Source: Spirochaetales bacterium (GTDB taxonomy: Bacteria; Spirochaetota; Spirochaetia; JABEVK01). Taken from it: a DNA stretch of 64,000 nt. The translations under genes and the position numbers were made by a program. The stretch is from the NCBI GenBank assembly GCA_947478845.1, contig CANJXC010000002.1:124001-188000 (forward strand), read 5' to 3'. Positions 9,597-28,211 of the stretch are shown here, one piece after another. The notes under the pieces are model-generated. The model searched no databases and was not told where the DNA came from. It worked only from the letters and a program-made list of their open reading frames with translations. Each line of letters opens with the position of its first letter. Position 1 is the first letter of the stretch.

Positions 9597-9659
9597 AACC
9601 GACTTTCAGCCGATAATCAGCTCACTAGTCCCGTGAAGTTGCCCCAAAAAGGACGTCGC

Positions 9660-9968: not shown

Positions 9969-10013
9969 TTTTCAAAGTCCGTGGTAAGCTTGAAACCACC
10001 AAGGAGTACAAAT

Positions 10014-10769: not shown

Positions 10770-10799
10770 GTCTTAAAAAACGATAAAGGTGGTTGTCCC

Positions 10800-11825: not shown

Positions 11826-13050
11826 GTCCTAAGGTAAAGCTCCCCGGCGGGACCCGCAATGTAAACTCCCGGTTGGTCGGGCCACCGTTGTAGCCCACGC
11901 TGAGGGAAAAGGGCAGAGTCTTGGGCAGGCGCACACTAAGCGACGCCGTGGCCGTGTAAGAGAGGTCGCTCAGGTTAGCAATGGTGCTCACACTGCCATC
12001 AATCGCATCGGTAAGGAGCTTAGTCTTGCTTAGCGAGGCAAACACATACTGCTGACCCCAACGGAAGGGCACAAAATTAGCGAGAACCAGACCGGTTAGT
12101 TCGGTATCGGACTTGCCGTCGGGGTTCTCAAACGCCTCGAAGCGAAGGGTAAAGTCGTCCAATGACTTTTCGCCGCCTAGACTCGCCGCCCAGCTGTAGG
12201 TGTAATCGTTCAACGGTACCGTGGCCCCGTACTCGCCCCAAAGATCGAATCCGAGCAGGCGGCCGCTGAAGGTGGCACCGGCCTGCGGTTTGGACGATTT
12301 GCCGTAGGAGCCCTGAACTCCAATGTTGAAGCCCCAAAGTGTGGTATCGATCCTTGCCGCTACCGAACCTTTTTCGATCAGGTCCTGCGGAGCGCCGGCA
12401 GCATTGAGCGTTTGGGATAGGTCACCAAATAAGAATACATTGCCTACCCCCACTGGGAGGTGGAGGCGCAATCCCGGCTTGCCCGTGCGTATATCGATGG
12501 CTGCCTGGGAGTCTGCCGGTCTCTGGTTGATGAAGTCGGCAGGGCTCCAGAAAAAGGCCGAGCCCCAATTTACCAACTGATTGCCTAGGCGCACAAACAG
12601 GATTTTGCTCACGTCAAAGCTCAGGTACACCTCAGAAAGCTGAAACTTTGGTGTATCGAGCGAGGGCTGAGCCAGTTGAAAAGCCGTTTTAAAGACCGAG
12701 TCGTTTGTGGAAGTCAGCCAGGTGTGGCCAAACGAATAGCTAACAAAGAACTGGCCCGTATCGGGCTTGTCGGCCTTCAGGAAGCCCTTGCCCGACACCA
12801 AGCTCTGTGCACCGTAAGCCTGCCGATCGGAAGGAATAAGCAGCGAGGTGTCGGAGAGCACGCTGACCCCGCCCAGCCAGGTCAGCTTGGTGGTTTCAGC
12901 TGAGGTCTGACTGGCTGTCAACGTCTGGTCAAACGCACCTTCGGCGAAAATATCGTCTTCGGAGGCCTCATCCTGTGCGAAGAGCGGCGAAAGGGCCACA
13001 AACAATGTAAGGACCGCGAGCAGTACCCTCTTGGGTTGTTGTTGGTTCAT
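11803..13050 (-). CDS. Outer-membrane beta-barrel protein of an ABC/LolA-like system (copy 1)
   Basis: A protein of 415 residues with a signal peptide ending SPLFAQ (about residue 26), then an acidic EDDIFAEGAF segment. The body is made of amphipathic beta-strands (for example LFGDLSQTLNAAG, TLRFEAFENPDG, YVFASLSKTKLLTD) ending GSFTLGLKSVLEL. The segment at 151-176, VRLGNQLVNWGSAFFWSP, is closely echoed in the protein at 60220-61716 (VRFGKQSASWGVAYFYSP). A shared DD-x-FA motif follows the signal peptide in both. It is the last gene of the TetR-LolD-FtsX-FtsX-LolA-like operon, 11 bases after the LolA-like gene. DUF1302-type barrels are a possible wider family. Confidence 0.75.
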   Translation of the reverse strand: MNQQQPKRVLLAVLTLFVALSPLFAQDEASEDDIFAEGAFDQTLTASQTSAETTKLTWLGGVSVLSDTSLLIPSDRQAYGAQSLVSGKGFLKADKPDTGQFFVSYSFGHTWLTSTNDSVFKTAFQLAQPSLDTPKFQLSEVYLSFDVSKILFVRLGNQLVNWGSAFFWSPADFINQRPADSQAAIDIRTGKPGLRLHLPVGVGNVFLFGDLSQTLNAAGAPQDLIEKGSVAARIDTTLWGFNIGVQGSYGKSSKPQAGATFSGRLLGFDLWGEYGATVPLNDYTYSWAASLGGEKSLDDFTLRFEAFENPDGKSDTELTGLVLANFVPFRWGQQYVFASLSKTKLLTDAIDGSVSTIANLSDLSYTATASLSVRLPKTLPFSLSVGYNGGPTNREFTLRVPPGSFTLGLKSVLEL

Positions 13051-13061
13051 GAGGGCACTCC

Positions 13062-13823
13062 TTAGCGGGATTGTTCTTCCAGAAAGGCTTGGCTGAAGGT
13101 GTAATCGGGGATTTTTCCTGTGCCGATATCGTCGTTGCTCAACAGCGTGCTCTGATTCTTCTCAAGATTGTTCTTGGCAAGGAGCTTCGTGAACAGGAAC
13201 TTGCCCTTGGCAACTTCTTTGAAATCTACGTAGTAGGTGGTTCGCAGCAAGGTCTTGCTGGCTGAATAGTTCTCCACCTTCACCGGGAGATTATTGGTCT
13301 TGTTCAAGTACCACTTCTGCACAGGGAAGCTCACATCGAGAGTTTTGGCATCCAGTTGGACAACAGTCGTGTCGTACTTGGAGATCTTCTCGTCGCCTGT
13401 CACTTTGGCGGTGTACTGGCTCAAAAGGTCCTGCTTGCCAAAAAGGTCGGTGCGCACGTCGGTGCTTCCCACGTCGTCTTTTCGGTTGCGGAAAACAAAC
13501 TCGCGGGTGCTGGGCAGATACAGGTATAGGTTGTCGTTGTCGCGATAATAGCCTTTTCCCTTTTCGCTGTCGGGGTACTGAAACAAAATGGTAAACTTGC
13601 CGGCTGTGTCCCGGCGGAAAATCCTGAGGCGGAGCACCCGATCGGCCTCGCCTTCTTTTTTTTGCACCAGGGTGAAAGTGCTGGTCATGTCGAGAGATTC
13701 CGTGTTGATTTTGTTTTCCAAATCCTTGATCAGAGCTGTCCCCACAGCGGCAGGATCAGAGTTTTGGGCCGACAACGTGGCGGCAAGGAGCAGGAATAGG
13801 CCTGCGGAAATGAAGCGGTTCAT
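13062..13823 (-). CDS. Outer-membrane lipoprotein-sorting protein, LolA-like (copy 1)
   Basis: A protein of 253 residues with a signal peptide (MNRFISAGLFLLLAATLSAQ). The periplasmic half-barrel features of the LolA-like family (Pfam LolA_like type) include LRIFRRDTAGKFTILF, GKGYYRDNDNLYLYLPSTREF and QKWYLNKTNNLPVKVENY. The C-terminal KIPDYTFSQAFL matches KLPDTVFTQAYL in the second copy. Start ATG 13823 has AGGAGG upstream. It presumably carries a lipid or lipoprotein from the FtsX-type transporter to the outer-membrane barrel. It is not LolA proper, which is shorter. Confidence 0.8.
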   Translation of the reverse strand: MNRFISAGLFLLLAATLSAQNSDPAAVGTALIKDLENKINTESLDMTSTFTLVQKKEGEADRVLRLRIFRRDTAGKFTILFQYPDSEKGKGYYRDNDNLYLYLPSTREFVFRNRKDDVGSTDVRTDLFGKQDLLSQYTAKVTGDEKISKYDTTVVQLDAKTLDVSFPVQKWYLNKTNNLPVKVENYSASKTLLRTTYYVDFKEVAKGKFLFTKLLAKNNLEKNQSTLLSNDDIGTGKIPDYTFSQAFLEEQSR

Positions 13824-13837
13824 GAAGCCTCCTAGGC

Positions 13838-15163
13838 TCAATAGGTTTTCGAGAGGGCGACGGCCGCCCGGATTTTGCCCCCGTGGCGAGCAGGGAAGAA
13901 CGAGAAGATTGCAGTAAACAACAACGCGACGGTCAGGATTAGACCCAGGGATCCCAGAGTAGGAATAAGCACCAAGTGGCCTTGGTCGAGGAAGAGGCTT
14001 AAGATTCCGGCGGGGGGCAGCGTGAGAAGGTTGCTGACGAAACCGATGATCAGAAGCGCGGCGGTGAGGCCCGCAAGCACAAACAGAAGGCTCAGGAACA
14101 CGTTCTCAAAGATCAGCATCAGAACGATGTCCTTGGTTTCGGTACCTATGGCCCTCAGGGTTCCTATTTCCTGCATGCGGTCGTTGATGGTCATGCGCAT
14201 GTTGATGAAAATCGAAATGGCGATGATGAACAGCATGATGGCCGCGAGGAAGCCACCGGCGGCATTGACCGCGTCGAGCACCTGCGCCAAAATGGCGACC
14301 ACTTCATTCACCGTGGCGATAGTGAGGCGGTTCTCGTTGACGTCGACCCCTTCGGATTTGTTCTTGGGCGTCGATGATGAAACCACCGAAATGGCATCGG
14401 AACTGCTCTCCGGCTTGCTGGTGACGTAGCCGGCATCTTTGAGAAGGCCCAAAAGTTTTTCACGCTTGACATCTAGACCGTCGGTATTCTTGAAGTACAC
14501 AAAAAGAGTGCTTGCGGAAAGCTTGTCTCCCATGGCAAGGGACTGCAGGAAGTCAAAATGGCAAAGCACAATTCCCTGCACGAAGTAGTTGGCGCTTTCG
14601 TAGATTCCCTTCACCCGGATGGTGCCGGTATTGAAGGCTCCAAAAATCGTACGGGTGCTGATAACCACCTCGTCGTCGAGCTTTAGCTTGAGGTAGTCGG
14701 CGGTATCCTTCGAAACAAGCACCCCGTTTTCTTGCGCCACGTAGTCTGCCCAACTGCCCTGGACAAAGTTCACCTGATCGCGAAGGCCGGTGTCTTTGGC
14801 AGTGTTAATGCCCTGAAAGCTCAGGCTCTTACTTTGTCCGAGGTAGTAAACGGTGCTGGTTAACTTGTAGCGAGCCAGCACGGTTACTTCACCGGGGTAC
14901 TCGTCCTCAATGACTTTGGTGATTTTGGGGTAGTCAGAGACCCCGATAAGGGTTTTCCCTTTGACAACTTTGCCGCCCGAAAGGGTCAGGTGTCCCGCCG
15001 CCGCCGAAATCAGGTTTCCTGAGAAGTTTTTCTTCACCCCATCGGAAAACGAGAACAGCAGGAGCATGAGAATGGCCACAACAAAGTAATTGACGCCAAG
15101 GGTGAAGCTGCGTTTTTTTTGGCGGAAGATGTTTTTGAACGCTAAAGAAAGGTAATAGGGCAT
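13838..15163 (-). CDS. FtsX/LolCE-type ABC transporter permease (copy 1, second permease)
   Basis: A protein of 441 residues. Topology is that of MacB/LolCE permeases: an N-terminal helix after KNIFRQKKRS, a large periplasmic domain (about 45-270) and three C-terminal helices. The FtsX signature MRMTINDRMQEIGTLRAIGTE lies between the second and third helices. The C-terminus, ALLFTAIFSFFPARHGGKI, is typical. It starts 9 bases after the preceding permease gene and pairs with it. These transporters extract lipoproteins or lipids from the inner membrane instead of passing solutes through a channel. Confidence 0.85.
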   Translation of the reverse strand: MPYYLSLAFKNIFRQKKRSFTLGVNYFVVAILMLLLFSFSDGVKKNFSGNLISAAAGHLTLSGGKVVKGKTLIGVSDYPKITKVIEDEYPGEVTVLARYKLTSTVYYLGQSKSLSFQGINTAKDTGLRDQVNFVQGSWADYVAQENGVLVSKDTADYLKLKLDDEVVISTRTIFGAFNTGTIRVKGIYESANYFVQGIVLCHFDFLQSLAMGDKLSASTLFVYFKNTDGLDVKREKLLGLLKDAGYVTSKPESSSDAISVVSSSTPKNKSEGVDVNENRLTIATVNEVVAILAQVLDAVNAAGGFLAAIMLFIIAISIFINMRMTINDRMQEIGTLRAIGTETKDIVLMLIFENVFLSLLFVLAGLTAALLIIGFVSNLLTLPPAGILSLFLDQGHLVLIPTLGSLGLILTVALLFTAIFSFFPARHGGKIRAAVALSKTY

Positions 15164-15172
15164 GGGATCTCC

Positions 15173-16594
15173 TTAGACGCCGCTCATGGCTTTGAGAGGC
15201 GATATATCCACCGCGACGCGGATGGGGTAAAGGGTGGCCAGAAAGGATACGACAAGGACCAAGCCAACACCGGTCAAGAAAGGTACCGGGCTAATCACTA
15301 AGTTCAGGGGGCCACCGCCCACCAGATACTGCGCCACGATGTCGGGCAGTTGAACACCGCCGGAACCAAAGCTGGCAATCAGGAGAAGGCTCAAGCTGAT
15401 TCCTACCACTGCTGCGAAAAGGTTGAGCAGAATACTTTCCCACAGAAAGATGGCTGAAACGAAGCTTTTATCAGCCCCTATTGCCCTCAAGGTTCCAATT
15501 TCGCCCGTGCGCTCGAGGATGTTGATGATCAGGGTGTTCATGAGAATGAAAACCACGATGAGGAAGATCAGGAAGGTCGCCCCGTAGATGACGGCCTGAA
15601 GGATGTCGGCAACGCTGGCAAAGAAGCTGGAGGCTTTGTTCCACGGAATCGACTTCACCTGAAAACCTTGAGCTTCCACGTCTTTGAGGAAGGCTTCCGC
15701 TCGCCCGGAATCTTTGAGCTTGATAGCAATCTGTGTAGATCCGGTGAGTTCTTCTTTGGCCAGCGAAGCCACGTCGAGCTTGTCGAAGGCCGCTGTGTCG
15801 GCGAGGCCAAAAATAGCATCGTCGCTGGTGGCGGCGAAGGCATCATCCATGGTGGCTGGCAGCGAACCGGTGGCAATCCCCGTGAAATTGAACAGGCTGC
15901 TGTAGGTGCGCATGTCCATGAAATTGATGTAATTAAACACATTGCTATAGTGCTTGGGCTCGAAATACCCCAATATCTGACTGGGGACAGCATTCACGCT
16001 TCCGCCCCCCGTGAGGCTCAGAAGGGTTACCTTCTGGCCCGGCTCGAGAGTGACGCCATACTTGTCGCGGTAGGCTTTTTTCTGCATCTCGCTGAGTAAA
16101 ACTCCCTGCGAGGATGGGGACCCCTCTGAACCGAAGTACTGACCCGTGGTGACCTTCAAGTTGTCGAAGGTTTTTTGGTAGCGGGCCGTGTCGACGGCAT
16201 AAAACAGAATGGGTAGATCAATTTTCGCTCCATCCTTCACCGTGGAGATCAGGCCGTAGTTCTGCCCGATGGAAACAAAAGATTCCACATCTGGGTTCGA
16301 ATCGAGCCAAGTCTCAATCTTGCGCGAGTCTTCCACCACAGGCAGCGGGGTGTTGAAGCTGAACGGGGAAGGAATCTCCCGCGAACGGTTGGAGTAGAGT
16401 TCTAGGTCGCCGGTAAAGTAGCTAACGATGGCCTTCTTGCTTTCACTTTGCGCCGAGGAGGCGAAGGTACCGCCAAAAACGATAAGGAAGGTACCAATAG
16501 TGACCAGGCTTCCGATGAGCAGCATTCGCGTCTTGCGGCGGAGTATAGACCGCATCGCGATGCGGATCGCAGCGGGCTTGAACAGATCCCTCAT
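15173..16594 (-). CDS. FtsX/LolCE-type ABC transporter permease (copy 1, first permease)
   Basis: A protein of 473 residues. N-terminal helix IGSLVTIGTFLIVFGGTF, a periplasmic domain, then FLIFLIVVFILMNTLIINILERTGEIGTLRAIGADK, with the coupling motif that follows the second helix in FtsX-type permeases. The C-terminal end is ATLYPIRVAVDISPLKAM. The truncated gene at the end of the window ends WIYPVSIALKVSPLKAI, marking it as the counterpart in copy 2. ATG overlaps the stop of the ATPase gene (ATGA). Confidence 0.85.
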   Translation of the reverse strand: MRDLFKPAAIRIAMRSILRRKTRMLLIGSLVTIGTFLIVFGGTFASSAQSESKKAIVSYFTGDLELYSNRSREIPSPFSFNTPLPVVEDSRKIETWLDSNPDVESFVSIGQNYGLISTVKDGAKIDLPILFYAVDTARYQKTFDNLKVTTGQYFGSEGSPSSQGVLLSEMQKKAYRDKYGVTLEPGQKVTLLSLTGGGSVNAVPSQILGYFEPKHYSNVFNYINFMDMRTYSSLFNFTGIATGSLPATMDDAFAATSDDAIFGLADTAAFDKLDVASLAKEELTGSTQIAIKLKDSGRAEAFLKDVEAQGFQVKSIPWNKASSFFASVADILQAVIYGATFLIFLIVVFILMNTLIINILERTGEIGTLRAIGADKSFVSAIFLWESILLNLFAAVVGISLSLLLIASFGSGGVQLPDIVAQYLVGGGPLNLVISPVPFLTGVGLVLVVSFLATLYPIRVAVDISPLKAMSGV

Positions 16595-17298
16595 ACAGCC
16601 TCTCCCACGGATTTTACATTGTCACCGGCAATCATCCCGTCGTGGATCGATATGACCCGGCGAGCCTTGTCCATGATGGTGTGATCGTGGGTGCTGAATA
16701 AAAAGGTGGTTCCCTGGCGTCGGTTGAGGTCTTCCATGAGCTCTAGAATCTTCGCCCCGGTTACCGAGTCAAGGTTGGCGGTCGGCTCGTCGGCCAAAAC
16801 CACCAAAGGCCTTGTCACCAGGGCGCGGGCAATGGCAACACGCTGTCGCTGGCCACCGGAGAGCTCGCTAGGCTTGTTCTTCATGCGGTCGACGAGCCCT
16901 ACTTCTTCGATGAGCTGCATCACGTGGGCCTTGCGCTCGGCCTCGTTCATCCCCTTTTCCAAAAGTAGGGGCAATTCGATGTTTTCGTAAACGTTGAGAA
17001 CCGGAATCAAGTTGAAACTTTGGAAGATAAAACTGATGGTGCTGCGACGGTACTTGGTGAGCCTCTTGTCGCTCAGGGCACTGACGTCGTCGCCACCGAT
17101 AATGACCCTTCCCGAGGTAGGGTTGTCAATACAACCCACCATGTTGAGAATGGTGCTCTTTCCCGAACCCGAAGGCCCGGCAATCGCGGTGAACTCACCT
17201 TTGGTGATTTGAAAACTGACGCCGCGCAGGGCTTCCACCTTGGTGGTTCCCAGCATGTAATGTTTCTTGACGTCGCCTAATTCAATAATAGTGCTCAT
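16591..17298 (-). CDS. LolD/MacB-type ABC transporter ATP-binding protein
   Basis: A protein of 235 residues. Walker A GPSGSGKSTILNMVG, Q-loop SFIFQSFNLIPVLNVYENI, signature LSGGQRQRVAIARAL, Walker B LVVLADEPTANLDS and the H-loop STHDH are all intact. The QSFNLIP-x-L-x-V-x-ENI stretch is typical of the LolD/MacB/FtsE group. Coupled by ATGA overlaps to TetR upstream and the permease downstream. It powers the two FtsX-type permeases. Confidence 0.92.
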   Translation of the reverse strand: MSTIIELGDVKKHYMLGTTKVEALRGVSFQITKGEFTAIAGPSGSGKSTILNMVGCIDNPTSGRVIIGGDDVSALSDKRLTKYRRSTISFIFQSFNLIPVLNVYENIELPLLLEKGMNEAERKAHVMQLIEEVGLVDRMKNKPSELSGGQRQRVAIARALVTRPLVVLADEPTANLDSVTGAKILELMEDLNRRQGTTFLFSTHDHTIMDKARRVISIHDGMIAGDNVKSVGEAV

Positions 17299-17924
17299 GT
17301 TTCCTCTCTTTTTGTGATTCCGTTGATCAGAATCTTGATAATCTGTTGTTTCATCGCTTGCCGGTCCCAGCCTTTTCCAAAGGTGGCCGGCGCCATTAAC
17401 CCACCGAGCATACCCAGCAGCATTTCTGCCAGCACCTGCGGCTCCATCTTCCAGTAAAAGCCCTCATCCACACCACGGCCGATCAGCCCCAGAATCTTCT
17501 CGTTCATGTCGCGCATCTTGAGGCCCATTTCTACCCGCTCTTCGGGCGACAAAATGCTGTCCATGAAGTGCCCTACATGATGGTGAATCTGGAAAAACGA
17601 CCGCTGCGAATCGGCATCGTCAATGTAGTTGCCAATCAGGTCGCGCAAGTTGTCCACCGGATGGCTCGAACGTTCAAATAACCGGTCCATTCGGGCGCTA
17701 GCTTCATCCATCGAGTCGCCAATAAGCGACTTAACGATGGCCTCCTTGCCTGGGAAGTAATAGTAGAGAGAGGCTTTGGCGTAGCCGAGTTCCACCGCTA
17801 TATCCTCAATGGTGGTGCCTTCGTAGCCCTTGGTCGCAAACAAGCGCAACGCCGCGTCCTTAATCTTTGCCGACTTTCTTCCTCTCTCACCTAGCTGCCG
17901 CGTTGTCCGGCTTTTGGCCGTCAT
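17295..17924 (-). CDS. TetR/AcrR-family transcriptional regulator
   Basis: A protein of 209 residues. N-terminal HTH: IKDAALRLFATKGYEGTTIEDIAVELGYAKASLYYYFPGKEAI, i.e. the TetR helix-turn-helix ending in the YYYF-x-x-KE motif. The helical ligand domain follows (GNYIDDADSQRSFFQIHHH). It is first in the operon encoding the LolD-type ATPase, permeases, LolA-like protein and barrel, so it probably autoregulates this export system. An inverted repeat overlaps its own promoter. Confidence 0.9.
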   Translation of the reverse strand: MTAKSRTTRQLGERGRKSAKIKDAALRLFATKGYEGTTIEDIAVELGYAKASLYYYFPGKEAIVKSLIGDSMDEASARMDRLFERSSHPVDNLRDLIGNYIDDADSQRSFFQIHHHVGHFMDSILSPEERVEMGLKMRDMNEKILGLIGRGVDEGFYWKMEPQVLAEMLLGMLGGLMAPATFGKGWDRQAMKQQIIKILINGITKREET

Positions 17925-17950
17925 TAGCCCTCCTCGTCCCTTAGTTCTGT

Positions 17951-17972
17951 TTTTCGAACGCTGGGTCGAAAA
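17951..17972. promoter_or_regulatory. Candidate TetR operator: TTTTCGA-N8-TCGAAAA
   Basis: A perfect 7-base inverted repeat with 8-base spacer overlaps the -10 and start region of the TetR promoter. Size (22 bases) and position suit autorepression by a TetR dimer. The same site should recur upstream of the copy 2 regulator if that gene exists beyond the window. Confidence 0.55.
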
Positions 17973-17997
17973 TAGAAGGTAACTGGGGGGAAGTCAA
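17969..17997 (-). promoter_or_regulatory. Sigma70-type promoter of the TetR-ABC-LolA-barrel operon
   Basis: On the minus strand there is TTGACT (17997-17992), a 17-base spacer and TATTTT (17974-17969), 45 bases upstream of the TetR start codon. It lies in the divergent gap to the MCP gene. Spacing and hexamers are good; activity is inferred. Confidence 0.6.
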
Positions 17998-18072
17998 CTA
18001 GCTTTTCAACAATTCAAGGTAATGGTCCCCACTCTTGTTCAGATATTGCATCAGGACGCACATATATCTAGA

Positions 18073-20055
18073 ATGTCCAATATGATAAAGTTCAACTTAA
18101 CGGGGAAGATCCTGCTGGGGGTTGTTTTCCTTCTGGTTCCATTGGGCCAGACACTGACGTCGGTTGTCCAATTTGGATCTACGACTATCACGACGGCCAA
18201 TACAGAGCGCAAAGGCCTCGCTTTGGCCTCGCCGCTTCTGGAATCAGCGCTGCAATGGCAGATCAAAGGACCCGACAAGGCTGGAGACTCGAAATTGTCG
18301 GGTCTGGTGGATACTTATGTGAAGCTGCTGGCAGCCACCCCGGAACTCACCATCAACGAGGCATCCTTGAATGCTGGCGGTTACTCATGGTTAGCGCCTG
18401 AGGCCATCCGCGAGGGTCTCTTGAGTGGAGCCGGCGGTAATCTCGAGCAGTTCAAGGTGCTGGAGAATGCACAACTCGATCAGGTATCGGCCATCGCTGA
18501 CGCCTCCTCCCTGGTCCTCGACCCTGACATAGACAGCTACTACCTCATGCTAGGCATCTTTGATTCATTGCCTGCTTTGCTCGCCGGGGTTACCGGTATC
18601 CGCAACACGTTAGTGAGCGACAAAGAGATGAGCGGTCCTGAAAAGGTTGTCGCCGCCGCAGCAGCAGACTCCTTGGAATCAAACTCCAAAAAGTTTGCCT
18701 TGAGGGTGTCGCGATCCATCGATACCGATGCCAGTGCACACGGTGCGGTGGCCGGATTCAGCGAAACGGTGAAGCCCCTGCTCACCACCGTCACCAGTCT
18801 TGGTACCGAACTCAAGGCGCTTACCTCCTCCGCTGTGCTCGGTGGTTCCCTTGACCGGCTCGCCTACCACTCTAAGTTGATTTCTTACGTTACCCAGCTA
18901 GCGAGTTTCCGAGCCACTGCAGTAAACGTGATGGATAAAATGCTGTTGGCTCGCATCGATGAGGCTCAGAAAAGTCTCTGGGAAGCCATCTTGGGAGCCT
19001 TGGCCAGTCTGGTCGTAGGGGCCTTGGTGCTCACCTGGGTACTCCTCGACGTGCGTTTCCGGGTCCGCGGCCTCGAAAAAACAATGTCTGCGGTCGTTTC
19101 AGGGGATCTTACCCAACCACTGCCCACTCGACTTCTCAAATCGAACGACGAAATTGGGCAGATGGGCAAACACTTCAACGAACTGCTCCTGATGCTTGCT
19201 GAGTTGCTCAAACAGATTCAACTCACCTCGGTTCAGATCACCGACATGGTGCAAGGGCTTTCGGCCTCATCGCAGGAAATCAGCGCAACCGCCAATGAGC
19301 AGGCCGCGGCTGTGAAGGAAATTGTCTCTACCATTGAAGACACCAACCATCTGGCCAAAAATATTTCGAACCGGGTAGAAGAAGTGAGCCGCATCGCCAC
19401 TGACACCAAGGGCAATGTAGAGGACGGAGTCACGGCTGTTCAAGACAATATTTCGAAGAGCAACGAGATTCATGACGCCAACAGCAAGACAATTTTGGGT
19501 ATCAATTTTCTGAGCGACAAGATCAAAAACATCTGGGACATCGTCAACATCATCAACAGCATCGCTGACCAGACCAAGATTATTGCCTTCAACGCCGAAC
19601 TCGAGGCTTCCAGTGCTGGAGAGGCAGGCAAAAACTTCCAGATCGTTGCCTCCGAAATCCGACGGCTGGCTGACAGCACCGTCACGTCGACGAATGAGAT
19701 CAAAATCCGCATCCAGGAGATTGAGCGAAGCAGTGACGCGCTTCTGCTATCTAGCGAGCAGGGAACTCTTCAGATCCTCCAGGGAAAAGACCTCTCGCAG
19801 CGCATGAACAAGCTCTTTGGCGATATCGCCCTGAGCTCTGAGGTGAGCAGTAGTTCTACTCAGCAGATAGCGGTTTCGATACGTCAGCAAGTGAGCAGTT
19901 TTGAGCAGATTCTGATTGCTATCAAGCAGATTTCCCAAGGCGTGGACAACTTTGTGGTGTCAACGAAGTCTACCTCCGGCACCACCGAGAACTTGCGCAA
20001 GATGTCTACAAAACTTTCGGCCATGCTGGAGAAGTTTGAGATGGCCGAAGAGTAA
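18073..20055 (+). CDS. Methyl-accepting chemotaxis-type receptor
   Basis: About 660 residues from ATG 18073 (an upstream in-frame ATG at 18022 would add 17 residues; neither has a strong ribosome-binding site). There is an N-terminal membrane segment (ILLGVVFLLVPLGQTL), a helical periplasmic domain to about residue 300, and a second membrane segment (LGALASLVVGALVLTWVLL). HAMP and a cytoplasmic coiled-coil follow. The signalling tip is divergent, QTKIIAFNAELEASSAGEAG instead of the usual QTNLLALNAAIEAARAGE, followed by FQIVASEIRRLADS. It heads a chemosensory operon with CheW, CheB, CheR and CheA, and its array probably feeds the nucleotide cyclases at the operon's end. Confidence 0.88.
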   Translation: MSNMIKFNLTGKILLGVVFLLVPLGQTLTSVVQFGSTTITTANTERKGLALASPLLESALQWQIKGPDKAGDSKLSGLVDTYVKLLAATPELTINEASLNAGGYSWLAPEAIREGLLSGAGGNLEQFKVLENAQLDQVSAIADASSLVLDPDIDSYYLMLGIFDSLPALLAGVTGIRNTLVSDKEMSGPEKVVAAAAADSLESNSKKFALRVSRSIDTDASAHGAVAGFSETVKPLLTTVTSLGTELKALTSSAVLGGSLDRLAYHSKLISYVTQLASFRATAVNVMDKMLLARIDEAQKSLWEAILGALASLVVGALVLTWVLLDVRFRVRGLEKTMSAVVSGDLTQPLPTRLLKSNDEIGQMGKHFNELLLMLAELLKQIQLTSVQITDMVQGLSASSQEISATANEQAAAVKEIVSTIEDTNHLAKNISNRVEEVSRIATDTKGNVEDGVTAVQDNISKSNEIHDANSKTILGINFLSDKIKNIWDIVNIINSIADQTKIIAFNAELEASSAGEAGKNFQIVASEIRRLADSTVTSTNEIKIRIQEIERSSDALLLSSEQGTLQILQGKDLSQRMNKLFGDIALSSEVSSSSTQQIAVSIRQQVSSFEQILIAIKQISQGVDNFVVSTKSTSGTTENLRKMSTKLSAMLEKFEMAEE

Positions 20056-20060
20056 GCAAA

Positions 20061-20570
20061 ATGGACTCAACACAGATCCTGGCAGAAATAGAGCTGTCTC
20101 AGAAACTGGACGACCAAGGTGAAGTAGCTGCCCTCGACGATACTAAGTACATTATATTTACTGCTGGAACAAGGCTTTACGCGCTTTTGGCCGATGACGT
20201 ACAGGAAATCATGCTTGGATCCGAAATCCACTACCTGCCGTTCCTGCCTCCCTTCGTGCGTGGCCTGATTAACCGGCTTGGCGAACCACTGACTGTTCTC
20301 GACCTCGATTACCTTTTGCAAGGGCGTCCCTTACAGGGTAAGGCCTTCATTATCCTCAAGCCCCATTTGTCAAAAATGGCCTTGCTGATCGATGCGGTGC
20401 AAGACATAACCCGGGTACCAGCAACTTCCATCCGTTCGGTCGCAGAAGGTAGTCAGGGTCAGGACGCTTATGTCGGTGGTGTTTTTGCCCGCAAGGATGG
20501 TGATGTCATCCTGCTGTCACTTGAGCACATCATTGCGGCGGTTCGGAAGGCTGTTGATGTCACGAGCTGA
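20061..20570 (+). CDS. cheW: CheW-type coupling protein
   Basis: A protein of 169 residues. The CheW fold is recognisable from KYIIFTAGTRLYALLADDVQEIM, LPFLPPFVRGLINRLGEPLTVLDL and ALLIDAVQDITRVP, followed by YVGGVFARKDGDVILLSLE. It links the receptor to the CheA-like protein. It starts 6 bases after the MCP stop. Its 3' end overlaps the next, CheW-like, gene by 14 bases. Confidence 0.88.
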   Translation: MDSTQILAEIELSQKLDDQGEVAALDDTKYIIFTAGTRLYALLADDVQEIMLGSEIHYLPFLPPFVRGLINRLGEPLTVLDLDYLLQGRPLQGKAFIILKPHLSKMALLIDAVQDITRVPATSIRSVAEGSQGQDAYVGGVFARKDGDVILLSLEHIIAAVRKAVDVTS

Positions 20571-21087
20571 CTTTCTCGTGCTCCACTACGGTACTTTCGA
20601 CCTCTTGTTTGCGCGAGACACCCTCTACGCCTCAACGTTTCGAAAACCAGCTCAGGGCGTAGAGGGTCGCGCCAAAGTTATTTTTGGCAATCGAGCCATT
20701 CCGGATATTGATCTCGACCTTTATGTTCGTCACCTTTTTCCGAAGGCCGTCGCGAGCCTGCCTCATCTTGGTGCGGTTTGCAAAGTGTCTGACTTAGAGA
20801 AGAACCAGGAATTGCTCGAGGGAGAGGAGTTGTTCGCGCTGGCAATTCCGTCGGATTCTGAGGTGAGGGCCCTCGAGCTCTCGGAGTTTCGGCCCCTGCC
20901 GTTTCACCTGCGCCCCTGCCTCGATCGTCACGGCTTGCGGGCAATTCGTTTTGAAGGCCTACGAATTCAGTATTTCTGCGATGCGGGTGTCTTTATTCCG
21001 GGATGTCTGATTTTTCATCACCTTAAAGGAGTTCAGGATGACCATTCTGGTGGTTTCACCTTCAGCCCTGTTGCGCTCCACGCTTAA
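20557..21087 (+). CDS. Divergent CheW-like protein
   Basis: A protein of 176 residues from ATG 20557. The pattern FLVLHYGTFDLLFARDTLYA and later KVIFGNRAIPDIDLDLYVRHLF fits the beta-strand layout of CheW (sensor strand, then GxxxPxIDL), but sequence similarity is low. Its 3' end overlaps the cheB start by 50 bases. It is probably a second coupling protein of the same array; an unrelated protein of unknown function cannot be excluded. Confidence 0.5.
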   Translation: MSRADFLVLHYGTFDLLFARDTLYASTFRKPAQGVEGRAKVIFGNRAIPDIDLDLYVRHLFPKAVASLPHLGAVCKVSDLEKNQELLEGEELFALAIPSDSEVRALELSEFRPLPFHLRPCLDRHGLRAIRFEGLRIQYFCDAGVFIPGCLIFHHLKGVQDDHSGGFTFSPVALHA

Positions 21088-22006
21088 GGAGCTCCTCATC
21101 CAAGTTGCAGGGGTCGACACGGTGCGGGAACTCGGTTCTGAGCTTCAGCTGGAAGCGACGCTTAGCCAATTCAACCCTGCCCTTGTCCTTGTGGATGAGG
21201 TGCTTAGCGTCGATTTGACCAAGGTTGGCAAGGTTTCGGGCACCTCCCCTTCGGTGTTTCTCCTTCAAAGCCCATCTTCACCAGCCCGCACCAAGGCAGT
21301 TTCAAAACCTGATTTTGCCAACGCTAGCCAAGGAGATCTGAAAAAGACCTTCCTTCCGTTGCTTGGCGAGCTGGTTGCTGAGGCCTCTTTGAAACTCCAG
21401 CGAGGCACTGAACAAAGGGGCAGATCTTCCGGTTCGTTCTCGATGGTCGTGATTGGTGCCTCAACTGGTGGCCCTGCAGCAGTGCGTACGGTACTGTCAC
21501 ACTTTGGCCCCGAGTTTCCCTATCCTATCGCCTTGGTGCAACACATCGACACCGGATACGACGAAGGTTACGCCTCCTGGCTAGCGCAAAACTCCAAACT
21601 CAAGGTGCGACTGGCCTGTGAAAACGACCGACCAAAACCCGGAGAGGTGATTGTAGCTCCCAACGATAAGCACTTGGTCTGCCAAGGAGAAACTTTTGGT
21701 CTGGATGATGGCCCGAAGGTTCTCAGCCAAAAGCCCGCCGTAGATCGCTTGTTTTCCAGCGTTGCCCGTTACCACGGCGCAGGGGTACTCGCCGTTCTGC
21801 TCACAGGTATCGGCTCAGATGGTGCCAACGGATGCCTCGATATCGTGAAAGGTGGCGGCATCACGATAGCTCAGGACGAGGCTAGCTCGACCGTGTATGG
21901 AATGCCCAGGGCCGCCGCCGAATTGGGGGCCGCTACCCACGTGTTGGGACTCAATGACATCGGTCCAGCGGTATTGGAACTGATTACCGCTCGGCAGGCA
22001 AAATGA
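21038..22006 (+). CDS. cheB: CheB-type protein-glutamate methylesterase with degenerate receiver
   Basis: A protein of 322 residues; start ATG 21038 follows AAAGGAG. The N-terminal receiver-like domain (about 1-115) begins ILVVSPSALLRSTL, so the acidic DD pair normally found there is missing, although an Asp survives in LVLVDEVLS. The C-terminal methylesterase domain is intact: Ser in IGASTGGPAAVRT, His in VQHIDTGYDEG, Asp in LLTGIGSDGANG. It removes methyl groups from receptor glutamates. Loss of the acidic pocket suggests regulation other than by phosphorylation. Confidence 0.88.
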   Translation: MTILVVSPSALLRSTLKELLIQVAGVDTVRELGSELQLEATLSQFNPALVLVDEVLSVDLTKVGKVSGTSPSVFLLQSPSSPARTKAVSKPDFANASQGDLKKTFLPLLGELVAEASLKLQRGTEQRGRSSGSFSMVVIGASTGGPAAVRTVLSHFGPEFPYPIALVQHIDTGYDEGYASWLAQNSKLKVRLACENDRPKPGEVIVAPNDKHLVCQGETFGLDDGPKVLSQKPAVDRLFSSVARYHGAGVLAVLLTGIGSDGANGCLDIVKGGGITIAQDEASSTVYGMPRAAAELGAATHVLGLNDIGPAVLELITARQAK

Positions 22007-22839
22007 ACAGCGAAGAAAGGCTGGAGATTGTTCTGCAATACTTGGAAACGCGGTTGGGTCTGGCAGTTCCTGCAACCAACTATTCCCGCTTGTCGGAGTT
22101 TGTGGGTGAACGTCTGATGGGGCAACAATGGACCTTTGACGACTACTTGGAGCACTTGGCTTTTGACTCGGACGAGATGGATCTGCTCATCGAAGCCTCC
22201 ACCATTGGAGAAACCTATTTCTTCCGTGATGAGTCTCACTTTGCCTTGCTTGAGCAAGAGATACTTCCGTTTTTTTCGACTTTGGGACGCATACCTGTGG
22301 CGTGGAGTGCTGCCGCGTCTTCTGGCGAGGAGGCCCTCTCCATCGCCGCTCTTTTCGCCCATTATTATGGTGGAACCCAGAATCTGACTGGAAAAATCTG
22401 GGCTTCGGACATCAACAGCCTTGGCCTTCAAACCCTCGCCCACGGGAACTATCCACAACGTTCGCTGCGCGACGACGGCAGCCGATTTCATCCGGTCCTG
22501 GAACCCTGGATTGAGCGCGGGTCCCGCATTCAAGTCGACTCCCGCCTCAAGAGCGCCGTGCAGGTTCGCATGATCAACCTGATGACCGACAGCTTCGACG
22601 CGATTCCGGGCCGGGTCGACATCCTTTTCCTCAAAAACATGCTGATTTACTTTCCGCTGGAACGACGCAAAGCCATTTACCGGAAGGTCAGCGAGAAACT
22701 CTCCTCCGAAGGATTTCTAATCCTGGGAAAATCGGAGGTGCCGTTCTTTGAAGACCCGGGCTTGACGCTCCTGGAACACAGGGGGCTATTCTATTTTGTG
22801 GCCAAGACCTCCTCTTACGATGGCAGGAGGGAGCTGTGA
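22003..22839 (+). CDS. cheR: CheR-type receptor methyltransferase
   Basis: A protein of 278 residues. The CheR layout is an N-terminal helical domain, then EASTIGETYFFRDESHFALLEQE (the conserved TTNxTxFFRD region as STIGETYFFRD). WSAAASSGEEALSIA is the SAM loop, DINSLGLQTLAHGNYPQRSLR follows, and the catalytic-domain end is VDILFLKNMLIYF. It methylates receptor glutamates with SAM. ATGA overlaps both with cheB and with cheA. Confidence 0.9.
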   Translation: MNSEERLEIVLQYLETRLGLAVPATNYSRLSEFVGERLMGQQWTFDDYLEHLAFDSDEMDLLIEASTIGETYFFRDESHFALLEQEILPFFSTLGRIPVAWSAAASSGEEALSIAALFAHYYGGTQNLTGKIWASDINSLGLQTLAHGNYPQRSLRDDGSRFHPVLEPWIERGSRIQVDSRLKSAVQVRMINLMTDSFDAIPGRVDILFLKNMLIYFPLERRKAIYRKVSEKLSSEGFLILGKSEVPFFEDPGLTLLEHRGLFYFVAKTSSYDGRREL

Positions 22840-24917
22840 TTTCTGATCAGCTGACAGCTCTGTTTCAGAGTCAGGCACGGGCAACCACGGGGACGCTCCG
22901 CGCACTCTTAGTACAAGCTCTCCGCAACGCCGACGATGAGCTTCTCTGGATACGACTGAGCCGGATGCTGGAGGCTTTGGCCGCTGATGCCTTGGCCGCA
23001 GGAAATACTCCCGTCTCAGAACTGTCTACGGCAATGAACCAAATTCCAGCCGGTCTCATGGAAGGCCGATTTTCGTTTGGCCCCCTCTATGTCAAGCTTC
23101 TGATGTTGCTCATAGAACACCTCGAAGAGTTTCTCGGACCCACAACGGAAACCGCCACCTTGAGGCTGGCGACTTTGTGCAACCTCTGCAACCGGGCCTA
23201 CAACCGCGAGTCCTTTTCACTCAAGGGCTTTTCTCTCATGGAAATGCAACAGCAGAGAAAAGCACCTGACGCGACGAAGGTTGACGAAAAAGTGGACGAG
23301 TCGGTCCAAGTGAGTCTCGATACCGTGGAACGCTTGGGCGAACAGCTCAATTCTGTGATTGTTCACCAGTTTCAGCTCAAAAAGAACGGCGATGGGCTCT
23401 CGCATATAGAAGACGCAGTCAGAGAGCTCCTTCACGGCTTGTCGGGCGCCGATCCCGGGCCGAAGAATCTGCAACGGGCCGAAACCATCTTGAAAGATTT
23501 ACAAACCCTGGGTACGGGTCTCAAGGAAGACTTGCTGGCGGTTGACCGCTCGTCGTTCGGCTTGCAGGAAGAAATTGCCCGCCTGCGAATGCTTCCCTTT
23601 CACGTGATCGGTGAGCGTTTGGCCACCCACGCCCGAAAGCGCGCCCAGAGCGAAGGAAAGGTGGTAGAGCTCAGTTTGCAAGGGCAGGCAACCCTTCTCG
23701 ACAAGTCAATACTCGAGTTGGTGTACTTGCCGCTTTCTGAGCTGGTTTCCAACGCTGTGACCCATGGAATTGGTAGCTCGCCTGAGGGCAAGGTGAGCCT
23801 CGAATGTTCGAGCGACGGCACCTCAATACGCATTGCTGTGATCGATCATGGACCAGGAATCGACTTCGAAGCGTTGCGAAGCTCTGCGGCGGTGGCGTTC
23901 CCTTTGGAGCGAGACGAGATTTTGGCCATGGCGGCCGAACAGCTCACCAGGTTTCTTTTCGAACCCGGTCTGGGAAGTTCCGTCGGTCTTTCGGGGGTAA
24001 AAGAGGCTCTCGATGCCATGCAGGGCAAGATCAGCATCGACTCACATCAGGGAACGGGAACCACCATCGTGCTCCAGATTCCTGCCTCAGTTTCGCTCGT
24101 GAGTGGTTTTTTTGTCCGGGCTGGCGGGGAGCGATTCTTTATCCCGGCGGTGTATGTGCGCGAGGTTGTCATTTTCCAGCGCAGCGATCTGGTCAGTTTG
24201 CCAGGGGGCCCGGTTTACCCCTTGAGGCAGGAAATGGTGCCGGTTGTTCCTCTGGCGAGCGTTTTTGAGGGAAAGGAAGCCTTGCGCAAAGACGTCGAAC
24301 AAATGGCCATCATTTCTCTTTTGGGAGAAACCTGGGGCCTTATTCTCGATACGATTGTTCGTCATGCTACCCTAGGCTACAAACCTCTGCCCGACAACTT
24401 GTCTTCGCTTCGAGAGGTCCAAGGCCTGGTCTACGACGAGAAGTTCAATCTGGTGCCTATTCTGAGTATTCCCGCCATCATCATACAGATCCGCCGACTG
24501 CGTTCCATCGAGTTCCGCCAGAGGTATCACAAGGCGGATGTGTCGGGACGCAACATATTGCTGGTCGATGACAGCCTGGTTTCACGCCAGACTCTCGGGC
24601 GCATCCTCGCCGATGGAGGCTTCACTGTTGAGGTCGCCGAAGACGGCATCGCTGCGCTCGAGTTACTTCACCACAAGTTCTTCCACCTGGTGATCAGCGA
24701 TGATGAGATGCCGCGGATGGATGGCCTGACTCTCGTGGAAAACCTGCGCAAAGAGCCCGAGTACGTTGAGGTACCCGTCATCATTCTGATTGCCGAGAGG
24801 GGCGGTAACGCAGAAAGCCAGTTTCGCAAAGTCGGTATCAAGGATTTCTACCAGAAGTCCGACTTCGACAGGCACGCGTTGTTGCGTGACATCCAACGGC
24901 TTCTGGCTGGGGCCTAG
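22836..24917 (+). CDS. cheA: Hybrid CheA-like histidine kinase with C-terminal receiver; Hpt histidine apparently lost
   Basis: A protein of 693 residues. An N-terminal helical region (about 1-105) resembles an Hpt domain, but the position expected to hold the phosphorylated His reads RLSRMLEAL around residue 43 where CheA has R-L-x-H-x-L-K-G. Dimerisation helices follow (about 150-260). The kinase ATPase domain has LSELVSNAVTHGI (N box), IDHGPGID (G1) and GLGSSVGLSGVKEAL (G2). After it come a CheW-like regulatory domain (about 420-560) and a receiver at about 569-690 with LLVDDSLVSRQT, LVISDDEMPRMDG and a Lys in FYQKSDF. No other Hpt is seen nearby. It sits in the MCP-CheW-CheB-CheR operon and is followed 2 bases later by the first cyclase. 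Confidence 0.85.
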   Translation: MISDQLTALFQSQARATTGTLRALLVQALRNADDELLWIRLSRMLEALAADALAAGNTPVSELSTAMNQIPAGLMEGRFSFGPLYVKLLMLLIEHLEEFLGPTTETATLRLATLCNLCNRAYNRESFSLKGFSLMEMQQQRKAPDATKVDEKVDESVQVSLDTVERLGEQLNSVIVHQFQLKKNGDGLSHIEDAVRELLHGLSGADPGPKNLQRAETILKDLQTLGTGLKEDLLAVDRSSFGLQEEIARLRMLPFHVIGERLATHARKRAQSEGKVVELSLQGQATLLDKSILELVYLPLSELVSNAVTHGIGSSPEGKVSLECSSDGTSIRIAVIDHGPGIDFEALRSSAAVAFPLERDEILAMAAEQLTRFLFEPGLGSSVGLSGVKEALDAMQGKISIDSHQGTGTTIVLQIPASVSLVSGFFVRAGGERFFIPAVYVREVVIFQRSDLVSLPGGPVYPLRQEMVPVVPLASVFEGKEALRKDVEQMAIISLLGETWGLILDTIVRHATLGYKPLPDNLSSLREVQGLVYDEKFNLVPILSIPAIIIQIRRLRSIEFRQRYHKADVSGRNILLVDDSLVSRQTLGRILADGGFTVEVAEDGIAALELLHHKFFHLVISDDEMPRMDGLTLVENLRKEPEYVEVPVIILIAERGGNAESQFRKVGIKDFYQKSDFDRHALLRDIQRLLAGA

Positions 24918-24919
24918 CC

Positions 24920-26467
24920 ATGGTGGTGGTGCTCTTGGGCGACGACGAGCAATGGCCCGAGCAATGGAAAACGCCCGCGGTGCAGTTCCTTTGCCTTTCC
25001 GATAGGGATGGGTTTACCGATTTTGATTGGGGGACGCTGGAGTTGCTTCCAGACCTTGTTGTGCTCGACCAACCCGGCTCACCGCGATTTTTGGCCCTTT
25101 TTAGTCAGGTAAAGTTCCACTTTTCTGAAAACCGGACCCAAATTGCCTCGTGGTCGGAAAATCCCAGCCCACGGGAGGTGTTCATTTGCCACAATGCCGG
25201 CATTTTGCTGTTGCATCCCGGGTTGTTAGAACGACATCCAAGTTTGGAGAATCTGCCCAAGCCGGTTCTGCCCGGCTCGCCGAGGCCGGAAGTTCTGAAT
25301 CTTGAGAATCAAGGTTTTGCTTTGGGACTTCACAAAGACCTCACCCAGTCGTTTTTGGAGGGCCAAAACCCAACCGCGCTCTTCTGGCACCTGCGCAACG
25401 CCTTTTCGCTGGTTTCAAACCCTGACATCTTGGTGTTCATCTTGAAAGACCGGCCTCATATCAAGGCCACGATTTTTGCCGGACCCGATCTGGTAACCGC
25501 CGAATGTGATAACTTCCTGCGTTTCTGTCAGCAGGATTTTCTGAACACCGACCGCTTTGTTGATCTGGAAGCCATGGTGATCGAGTACCTCGAACGCGAT
25601 CAACGCCAAATAACCGGTCGCGGCCGGGGGGCCCTCAGCTCGTACTGGTTCCATGAGCTCAAGGATGCGCAGGGCGTGAGTCTGGGAACGGTGCATAGCG
25701 GAAGTTTCAGCAATCAGTATTTCACTCCGTTAGTTGAGCGCCGGTTGTCGTCCGTGGCGGTATTGGCTGGTCCCCTAGTCGGAATGATGCTGCGCGACCA
25801 GCACCTGAGCAAGCGATTGACGTCGCTGCGGACACTATTTGGAAAGTTCCTGCCGGACACCGTAGTTGAGAAGCTACTAGCGGCCGACCAGGATAGCCCT
25901 ATGGAAGAGGGCAGAAAGCAAGAGCTGGCAATCCTTTTCTCGGATATCCGAGGCTTCACATCCATTACCGAGAGAAACGGGGCCGAGGCTGTCGTTGGCT
26001 TTCTCAACCACCATTTTGATGCCATGGTGGCGGCCATTGTGGCCAATGGCGGCGTGGTCGATAAGTTTATCGGCGATGCCATCGTTGCCGTGTTTGGCAT
26101 CGATCCCTTGCCGATCTCTCCAGCGGAGGCGGCAACCCGAGCGGCACAAGCCATGATCGCTAACCTAAAATCGGTCGAAGTGTCGGGTCTTTTGCTCGAC
26201 GGAAACACCTACCGCATTGGTATCGGCCTGCACTACGGCGAGGTTGTGCTTGGATACCTTGGATCTGACGAAAAAACCGCGTTCACCGTGATCGGAAAAG
26301 CCGTCGAGACCGCCGAACTGTTGGAGTCCTCAACTAAAGCCTACCAAGTCGATATCCTTGTTTCAGGCGAACTGCGTGAACGAGTCTTGACCGATGTCCT
26401 GAAGTTTCAAGACCTAGGAACCATGGAAGATGCCGAAGGCGAAGCTTTGAGGTTGTATACCGTATGA
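24920..26467 (+). CDS. Class III nucleotide cyclase, C1-like half (metal-binding Asps kept, transition-state Asn/Arg lost)
   Basis: A protein of 515 residues. The N-terminal segment looks like a degenerate receiver (VLLGDDEQW, LVVLDQPGS), and a middle domain of unknown type ends in LRTLFGKFLPDTVVEKLL, the usual helix before cyclase domains. The cyclase domain (about 335-510) has metal-binding Asp342 (LFSDIRGFTS) and Asp386 (KFIGDAIVAVFG) and the base-recognising Lys382 and Thr456. In the motif normally reading VIGDxVNxAARLE it reads VIGKAVETAELLE, so the transition-state Asn and Arg are Glu463 and Leu467. Alone it should not cyclise nucleotides; the next gene supplies the missing residues. 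Coupled to cheA (2-base gap). Confidence 0.85.
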   Translation: MVVVLLGDDEQWPEQWKTPAVQFLCLSDRDGFTDFDWGTLELLPDLVVLDQPGSPRFLALFSQVKFHFSENRTQIASWSENPSPREVFICHNAGILLLHPGLLERHPSLENLPKPVLPGSPRPEVLNLENQGFALGLHKDLTQSFLEGQNPTALFWHLRNAFSLVSNPDILVFILKDRPHIKATIFAGPDLVTAECDNFLRFCQQDFLNTDRFVDLEAMVIEYLERDQRQITGRGRGALSSYWFHELKDAQGVSLGTVHSGSFSNQYFTPLVERRLSSVAVLAGPLVGMMLRDQHLSKRLTSLRTLFGKFLPDTVVEKLLAADQDSPMEEGRKQELAILFSDIRGFTSITERNGAEAVVGFLNHHFDAMVAAIVANGGVVDKFIGDAIVAVFGIDPLPISPAEAATRAAQAMIANLKSVEVSGLLLDGNTYRIGIGLHYGEVVLGYLGSDEKTAFTVIGKAVETAELLESSTKAYQVDILVSGELRERVLTDVLKFQDLGTMEDAEGEALRLYTV

Positions 26468-26477
26468 GGATACCGGA

Positions 26478-28211
26478 GTGAAGAAACTGCTGGTCCTCGA
26501 TGACTCCCCTTTCTTCTCTGCCCTCTTACGGCCGGTGCTGCAGGTTTGTGGATATGAGCTGACCGACCGACCGGAGGAGGCCAACGCTGTCCTGGTGGAT
26601 CCCACCTGGCATTCGGATGCAGGCTTCCTGATGTTATTGGCCCTGCGCGAGCTTGCCCCCGGTGTTTCTCTACCCGTTGTGGTGCTTCTAGCTTCACCGA
26701 CGAGTCAGTCGAGGGCTTTTCTCCAGGGGCTCGAGTTCCCTTGGGCAGTGAAAGGACGACTGAAGGACGAGGCACTGGGTAAGTACTTCTTGAAGTTTTT
26801 GGAGCAACCGACGACCCTACTTTCGCACGAGTTTGGACCCCTGCTTCAAGAGGCTTTGGCCAAAGCGTTGCAAGCCGACTCCCGGCCCTACCTGAATCCA
26901 CTCATCAGCGGCGCTTTGCTTCACGCCCTTTCAGAAGCTGGAACCACTGATGTTGCTCTTGAGAGGGGTTCCCGGTCGCTTTTTGACCATTATCCGCTCC
27001 TGGTGGCGGGCATCGAGGTCCCCGGTGCCACTCTGCTGACCTGCCTCGGGGTCGACACGGCCCGGGGCGCCGTAGCGAGAGTCTTGCAAGCCCTAGGCTG
27101 GACTTCTGAGCGCCGGGTTAACGAGCTTCGCGAAATCCGTGCAGAGTTTCCGATGTCACAGACACCCGCAGGCCACTTTGAACGGAGTTTTTCTTTGCCA
27201 CAATGCTCGGGCCGATTCGTTGCGGTGTTCTCCACCGATGATGAGTTGATTCTAGAATACTTCGAGCGTACCCTCGCGGCCTTTGACCGGGCTCTCACGG
27301 TTCTCGCCAAAGGACTGGCGCTTGCCAATTCAGAGAAAAGGGTATTCCGCGTTTTTTCACGCTTTGTTCCTTCGGTCGTGATCGAAGACCTGTTGCGCAA
27401 GAAATCGGCTGCCGCCCTTCTCACCGGGGAAAAACGCCGCATTGTCGCCCTGTTTTCCCACGTGCGGGATTTCTCGTTTTATGTTGAGGAAAACGACCCT
27501 AAGGAGCTCGTGCGGTTCCTCAACCGCCACTTCAGACTGTATGCGAAGATCATCCGAAAACATGGTGGTTTCATCAACAAGTATATCGGCGATGCGGTGT
27601 TTGCTATTTTTGGGGCTCCGGTGAGCCACATAGACAACGCACGACGGGCGTTGGCGGCGGCCCTCGAGATTGAGCAGGAACTTGCCTTGCTTCCGCCTCT
27701 GGAACTGCACTACCCCGCCGAGGGCTATAGGGTCGGCTTGGGCCTCAACGAAGGCGAAGCCATTGTAGGTAACATCGGAAGCAGGGATTCCTTCGATTAC
27801 ACGGCCATTGGCGACACTATCAACCTAGCCGCACGACTCGAATCGCTGTGTAAGCACTATGGAACAGGTGTTCTGCTCTCGGACGAGTTCCGTCAAGCGC
27901 TAGAAGCTCAGCATGACCCACACCGGCTCAGACAAGTGGATCGGGCCAGGGTGAAAGGCAAGCTTGTGGCAACGGTGTTTCATACCGTATACCCTGAGGC
28001 GAGTGTGGACCCTGAGTTTGACAGATGCTACCGCAAGGGCATGAAGATGTTCAGGTTAGGCAACTGGACAACAGCAGTCGAGTTCTTTGACAGGGGACTC
28101 GAGCTCCAAAGTGGGGATTTTCTCTGCGACTTGTACTCTCGCAGATGCCGGGAGTTTATGGTTTCGCCACCAGAGGGCTGGGATGGGGCAATCACGTTGG
28201 GCTTCAAGTAG
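26478..28211 (+). CDS. Class III nucleotide cyclase, C2-like half (transition-state Asn/Arg kept, first metal Asp lost), with receiver domain
   Basis: A protein of 577 residues from GTG 26478 with GAGGA upstream. The N-terminal receiver (about 1-110) keeps the acidic pair Asp8/Asp9, a phospho-acceptor candidate Asp41 and Lys92. A middle sensor-like region leads to VFSRFVPSVVIEDLL and the cyclase domain (about 320-490). Here the first metal Asp is His328 (LFSHVRDFS), while Asp372, Lys368, Thr442, Asn449 and Arg453 (YTAIGDTINLAARLES) are kept. The C-terminal FRLGNWTTAVEFFDRGL is TPR-like, as in many bacterial adenylate cyclases. It complements the previous protein, so a heterodimer with one complete site is predicted. 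The Lys/Thr pair favours ATP, hence cAMP. Confidence 0.85.
   Translation: MKKLLVLDDSPFFSALLRPVLQVCGYELTDRPEEANAVLVDPTWHSDAGFLMLLALRELAPGVSLPVVVLLASPTSQSRAFLQGLEFPWAVKGRLKDEALGKYFLKFLEQPTTLLSHEFGPLLQEALAKALQADSRPYLNPLISGALLHALSEAGTTDVALERGSRSLFDHYPLLVAGIEVPGATLLTCLGVDTARGAVARVLQALGWTSERRVNELREIRAEFPMSQTPAGHFERSFSLPQCSGRFVAVFSTDDELILEYFERTLAAFDRALTVLAKGLALANSEKRVFRVFSRFVPSVVIEDLLRKKSAAALLTGEKRRIVALFSHVRDFSFYVEENDPKELVRFLNRHFRLYAKIIRKHGGFINKYIGDAVFAIFGAPVSHIDNARRALAAALEIEQELALLPPLELHYPAEGYRVGLGLNEGEAIVGNIGSRDSFDYTAIGDTINLAARLESLCKHYGTGVLLSDEFRQALEAQHDPHRLRQVDRARVKGKLVATVFHTVYPEASVDPEFDRCYRKGMKMFRLGNWTTAVEFFDRGLELQSGDFLCDLYSRRCREFMVSPPEGWDGAITLGFK

Follow-up and report, generated by a model that had tools for sequence, protein, structure and literature searches.

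In class III nucleotidyl cyclases, the aspartates that hold the metal ions and the asparagine/arginine pair acting on the transition state are contributed to the active site by opposite chains (PMC3591389). Heterodimeric enzymes that divide these residues in the same way have been established in eukaryotes (PMC3591389, PMC8815786), and such split-site heterodimers are a textbook feature of animals, represented by the adenylyl cyclases and soluble guanylyl cyclase. A natural bacterial pair of genes encoding C1/C2-type subunits was not reported in the open literature searched, which left subscription journals mostly outside; the same searches for bacterial heterodimeric or pseudo-cyclases returned only eukaryotic cases or unrelated papers, and yielded no paper on spirochaetal che operons ending in a cyclase. 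Here we describe two adjacent cyclase genes, termed C1 and C2, within a 64,000-nucleotide stretch of a Spirochaetales genome (contig CANJXC010000002.1, positions 124,001 to 188,000; hereafter the window), which very likely encode an obligate C1/C2-type heterodimeric adenylyl cyclase with one ATP site, although the pairing, the activity, the product and the input of this enzyme are inferred.

Gene order, domains and active-site residues

The window belongs to a spirochaete draft genome of 2.99 Mb in 22 contigs, and the relatives found for it carry the names Spirochaetes or Spirochaetales. A tight run of plus-strand genes (18022–28211) starts with a methyl-accepting chemotaxis protein (MCP, 18022–20055), followed by CheW (20061–20570), a conserved but unassigned protein (20557–21087), CheB (21038–22006), CheR (22003–22839), a CheA-like protein with a C-terminal REC domain (22836–24917), C1 (24920–26467) and C2 (26478–28211). 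The che genes and the MCP were assigned by Pfam, supplemented by alignment for CheB and CheA, while the conserved protein, with a probable start at 20557, was recognized from its open reading frame and from homologues present in most operons with a cyclase pair and, weakly, in several operons with a single cyclase (singletons). The gaps between CheA and C1 and between C1 and C2 amount to only 2 and 10 nt, respectively. This gene order is shown by the sequence, and from order and spacing alone we infer that the run from MCP to C2 constitutes one operon, the cyclase pair being its last part directly 3' of CheA. With MCP, CheW, CheA, CheB and CheR encoded together with an output, the locus meets the definition of a chemosensory system of the ACF type.

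C1 comprises 515 aa (ATG start) and C2 577 aa (GTG start), with the same boundaries that an earlier note, made without database searches, had given for both frames. Both proteins scored far above the Pfam cut-off of 21.9 bits for Guanylate_cyc (PF00211), with 67.4 bits for C1 and 59.0 bits for C2. AlphaFold2 single-chain models (mean pLDDT of 81 for C1 and 86 for C2) share one domain order, namely a receiver-like N-terminus, a GAF/PAS-like domain, a single 38-residue helix (aa 270–307 in C1, aa 256–293 in C2) and the cyclase domain (aa 331–515 and aa 317–508); the GAF/PAS-like label is inferred from how strands and helices follow one another in these predictions. CyaB is the closest solved fold for both cyclase domains, matching C2 with a VIA Z of 25.4 (1.8 Å over 187 residues) and C1 with a Z of 24.6 (2.2 Å over 182 residues), so that membership in the class III nucleotidyl cyclases is met by profile and by fold. 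C2 additionally carries a TPR-like tail ending in WDGAITLGFK (TPR was detected in a relative), which C1 lacks. The earlier description of the N-termini as receiver-like inputs held in part: a Pfam search detected no REC domain in C1 or C2 of the window, while singleton relatives contain a clear one (69.6 and 73.5 bits), and we regard the receiver of the pair proteins as REC-like by descent and eroded. The second, GAF/PAS-like input domain had been missed, and neither the chemosensory operon nor the changes in CheA described below had been used. As a separate observation, the genome contains a truncated extra copy of the C-terminal part of C2 (L104, G000:C14, 7347–7943, minus strand), a 199-aa frame with 58% identity to C2 residues 433–575.

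Neither protein holds the complete site expected of a homodimeric cyclase, as C1 reads DKDKEL (D342, K382, D386, K460, E463, L467) and C2 reads HKDDNR (H328, K368, D372, D446, N449, R453) at the six diagnostic positions. Sequence alignment to CyaC (1wc0) and CyaB (3r5g) places Asp342 (25943–25945) and Asp386 of C1 (in KFIGD together with Lys382, 26063–26077) on the metal aspartates, and Glu463 and Leu467 on the asparagine and arginine, with Lys460 at the position of the adenine-specifying aspartate (26297–26320). In C2, the first metal aspartate is replaced by His328 (27459–27461), while Lys368 and Asp372 (KYIGD, 27579–27593), the adenine-specifying Asp446 and the transition-state residues Asn449 and Arg453 (27813–27836) are retained. 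C2 also keeps Lys493 of a VKGK motif (27954–27956), which we take to be the counterpart of Lys593 of soluble guanylyl cyclase beta, a correspondence based on what is generally known of this family; Lys593 itself is a phosphate-binding lysine (PMC3591389). This lysine is present in all C2 proteins (seven of seven) and in all singletons checked, but absent from every C1 checked (six of the seven, including that of the window). The residue pattern is thus shown, and the earlier note's assignments were confirmed for every residue named, their placement being supported by the sequence alignments to the solved cyclases. Since Lys368 and Asp446, invariant in all seven C2, form the base-specifying pair of adenylyl-type enzymes, ATP is inferred as the substrate and cAMP as the predicted product.

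Conservation and origin of the tandem pair

A search for co-conserved pairs, as suggested in the earlier note, showed that the tandem pair is kept directly after CheA at seven loci, i.e. the window, G250 (its contig being that of L043), L044, G021, G070, G050 and G029. All seven C2 display the pattern H-K-D-D-N-R, and all seven C1 retain D-K-D, with both metal aspartates and the lysine, and have lost asparagine and arginine, the remaining three positions reading K-E-L, S-E-G, D-G-E, N-G-E, E-S-A, D-S-E and D-R-E. Metal aspartates on one subunit and Asn/Arg with the base-specifying pair on the other are therefore complementary and conserved in every pair. As the orthologues share only 26–53% identity with the window proteins, this retention reflects selection and not recency. 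Homologues of one subunit occurring widely without the other would have spoken against a heterodimer; at the loci inspected, which left out some lower-scoring matches without a locus, neither C1 nor C2 occurred without its partner, and the homologues found alone were intact cyclases of the homodimer type. Of 130 cyclase domains collected from spirochaetes (about 127 distinct after a few duplicates), 109 distinct domains retained both aspartates, asparagine and arginine, and every exception lay within a tandem pair. One apparent natural C1–C2 fusion, a 1356-aa open frame in G419, was rejected as it proved to be an intact 616-aa singleton in a high-GC open frame.

The pair is rare, being present in six of 393 sampled genomes of the phylum in addition to L044. 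In most other spirochaetes examined, the operon of MCP, CheW, CheB, CheR and CheA closes with only one cyclase, which is about 600–620 aa long and has an intact D-K-D-D-N-R site. In a tree built without the active-site columns, C1 forms one clade (99/98), and C2 groups as one clade as well (89/66), although the latter is not firmly shown. Both clades branch compatibly, with L044 outside the other six, the window joined to G250 and G021 joined to G029. The simplest account, which we infer from these data, is that the homodimeric cyclase closing the chemosensory operon was duplicated in tandem, that the two copies would then have lost complementary halves of the site, and that both were inherited jointly. 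No C2 orthologue was present in the six other genomes searched from the window's own order and the nearest relative is placed in a different family, which makes it likely that the window operon was acquired by horizontal transfer; no further pairs turned up when the orders that include G021 and G029 were searched.

Contig C8 of the same genome encodes two more tandem pairs of about 900-aa proteins, one of which contains NHL, HAMP and cyclase domains according to Pfam. One pair is complementary, with D-R-D-P-D-K and S-K-E-D-N-R (L125, G000:C8:68001-88000, positions 8561–11320 and 11136–13856, minus strand), while the other is dead on both sides, with K-H-E-D-E-Q and T-K-E-A-N-I (13955–16516 and 16471–19158 of the same locus, minus strand). 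Because the tree groups like with like, the C8 pair itself has been duplicated. Its relatives elsewhere are intact singletons, and the complementary C8 pair has an origin independent from that of the che-operon pair; complementary splitting consequently occurred at least twice. As one phylum offers the intact ancestral type, the split pair and another, independent split, the step from a homodimer to an obligate heterodimer becomes datable and replayable.

Proposed heterodimer and its probable control by the array

Given that metal aspartates and Asn/Arg come from opposite chains, a C1:C2 dimer would hold one full and one dead site, whereas a C1:C1 dimer would have no transition-state residues and a C2:C2 dimer would miss one metal ligand. 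In the proposed enzyme, the subunits would pair through their helices of equal length and through the cyclase domains; Asp342 and Asp386 of C1 would hold the metals, and Lys368, Asp446, Asn449, Arg453 and Lys493 of C2 would hold ATP. This composite site is complete (D, D, K, D, N, R plus the lysine of VKGK), and none of the seven pairs deviates at any of these residues on the subunit that has to supply it. The mirror site, formed by His328 and Asp372 of C2 with Lys382, Lys460, Glu463 and Leu467 of C1, would be dead, possibly serving as a regulatory pocket. The C1/C2-like heterodimer already inferred in the earlier note is supported by the co-conservation of the pair, with pairing and activity remaining inferences. 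The term obligate is very likely justified for C1, where the loss of the asparagine, the arginine and the VKGK lysine makes it near-certain as far as can be judged without activity data. It is less certain for C2, in which one metal aspartate has become an invariant histidine: the second metal aspartate is kept and the substitution does not look like random decay, so that some activity of C2 homodimers, or a function of the mirror site, is not excluded. Furthermore, C1 retains Lys382, which would sit idle in the dead site of a heterodimer, and enzymes of this kind have promiscuous surfaces on their catalytic domains (PMC3591389), for which reason the preference for the heterodimer is merely assumed.

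Three other explanations were weighed against the heterodimer. If C2 alone were the enzyme, a homodimer using His328 and Asp372 as metal ligands, C1 would be a catalytically dead modulator acting through heterodimers. The invariance of His328 in seven C2, the retention of the lysine, the second aspartate, Asp446, asparagine, arginine and the VKGK lysine, and the preserved C-terminal tail of the ancestral enzyme all favor this reading. However, all seven C1 keep both metal aspartates despite their other catalytic losses, although a dead modulator would have no use for them, and all intact relatives have aspartate at the position of His328; we thus regard it as very unlikely. The same holds for the proposal that both proteins are pseudo-cyclases that signal within the array without catalysis. 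Degeneration across the operon (CheA Hpt, CheB REC and the REC-like inputs) and the fully degenerate tandem pair elsewhere in the genome are in line with this proposal, but what survives adds up to precisely one full set of active-site residues, which does not vary among the seven divergent pairs. That the substitutions merely reflect random decay or sequencing errors in one genome, without functional pairing, is supported only by the draft state of the assembly in 22 contigs and is all but excluded, as the pattern is repeated at seven loci in different genomes and families and the reading frames are full length.

The heterodimer model further proposes that the cyclase would be controlled by the MCP-CheW-CheA array encoded upstream. 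Alignment revealed that, of the six pair operons with a fully readable CheA, five have another residue in place of the phosphotransfer histidine of the Hpt domain, namely Glu46 in the window (nt 22971–22973), Asp in both G250 and G021, Thr in G050 and Gln in G029. The CheA of L044 and each of the twelve singleton CheA proteins aligned retain the histidine. Consistently, Pfam detected no Hpt domain in the CheA of the window, G021 and G029 (HATPase_c, CheW and REC were present in that of the window), but did so in the CheA of L044 and of G048, a singleton operon. The window CheA, in which part of the ATP-lid segment is lost as well, does not meet the definition of a canonical CheA kinase with a phosphorylatable Hpt histidine, while the Hpt of L044 is intact. 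In the same five operons the acidic pair of the CheB receiver is lost, with VSPS instead of VDDS in the window. This change was considered as an unambiguous sign that phosphotransfer is lost but proved only a weak marker, since the CheB receiver is also degenerate in three singleton operons with an intact CheA Hpt. Because L044 branches first, the cyclase split likely preceded the loss of phosphotransfer, and a single loss of the histidine on the tree is possible.

A CheA without its phosphotransfer histidine would probably control the cyclase by conformational contact and not by phosphate; for the species lacking the histidine we consider this likely, with moderate support and by inference only. 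In pair operons, the loss points to a chemosensory output without phosphorylation. The bolder reading in its entirety, i.e. that a phosphotransfer-dead CheA scaffold directly switches the obligate C1/C2 cyclase by contact and that the mirror site is an allosteric pocket, is one we lean slightly against; if true, receptor occupancy would be converted to cAMP without a phosphate relay. The 13 cNMP-binding domains encoded in the genome could possibly serve as cAMP readers.

Comparison with known systems

Among the chemosensory systems, Pil-Chp of Pseudomonas aeruginosa resembles the proposed arrangement in that an array controls a class III adenylyl cyclase, CyaB. Unlike the window pair, CyaB is a membrane enzyme of the homodimer type encoded apart from the chp genes. 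ChpA also differs from the window CheA in having multiple Hpt domains, most of them with the histidine (PMC10782961). The REC-cyclase singletons of che operons (e.g. L111, L113 and L137) share the operon position and the domain order, including the WDG..FK tail, and are 26–30% identical to C2 overall and about 40–46% in the cyclase region and tail. In contrast to the pair, they hold the full D-K-D-D-N-R site in a single protein of ordinary homodimeric layout, and their REC is intact in several cases.

The fungal NeoR/RGC rhodopsin cyclases likewise form an obligate heterodimer of two class III subunits, yet RGC1/2 retain all catalytic residues and heterodimerization is not forced by complementary losses (PMC8815786). 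Soluble guanylyl cyclase alpha/beta (3uvj, 4ni2; PMC3591389) is also encoded by two genes, with the metal aspartates on alpha, arginine and lysine on beta and a helix before the cyclase domains. Its homodimers are inactive, as is predicted, with less certainty for C2, for those of the window proteins. It differs in producing cGMP and in sensing NO via H-NOX, whereas the window pair carries a Lys/Asp base-specifying pair indicative of ATP and REC-like and GAF/PAS-like inputs.

The mammalian transmembrane adenylyl cyclases, C1/C2 pseudo-heterodimers (1azs, 1cjk), show the same division of labor: the metal aspartates come from the C1 half, the lysine, aspartate, asparagine, arginine and phosphate lysine from the C2 half, and the mirror site is degenerate. 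Both window models match 1azs_A (VC1) with a Z of 21.9. The window pair differs in that it is encoded by separate genes, soluble, without membrane cassettes, located in a chemosensory operon and of separate origin, and in that its C2 keeps the second metal aspartate with a histidine in place of the first. As a compact, soluble, two-part cyclase, it would lend itself to use in split reporters. By analogy, the enzyme would work on the principle known from soluble guanylyl cyclase and the adenylyl cyclases of animals, here in bacteria and divided between two genes that close a chemosensory operon.
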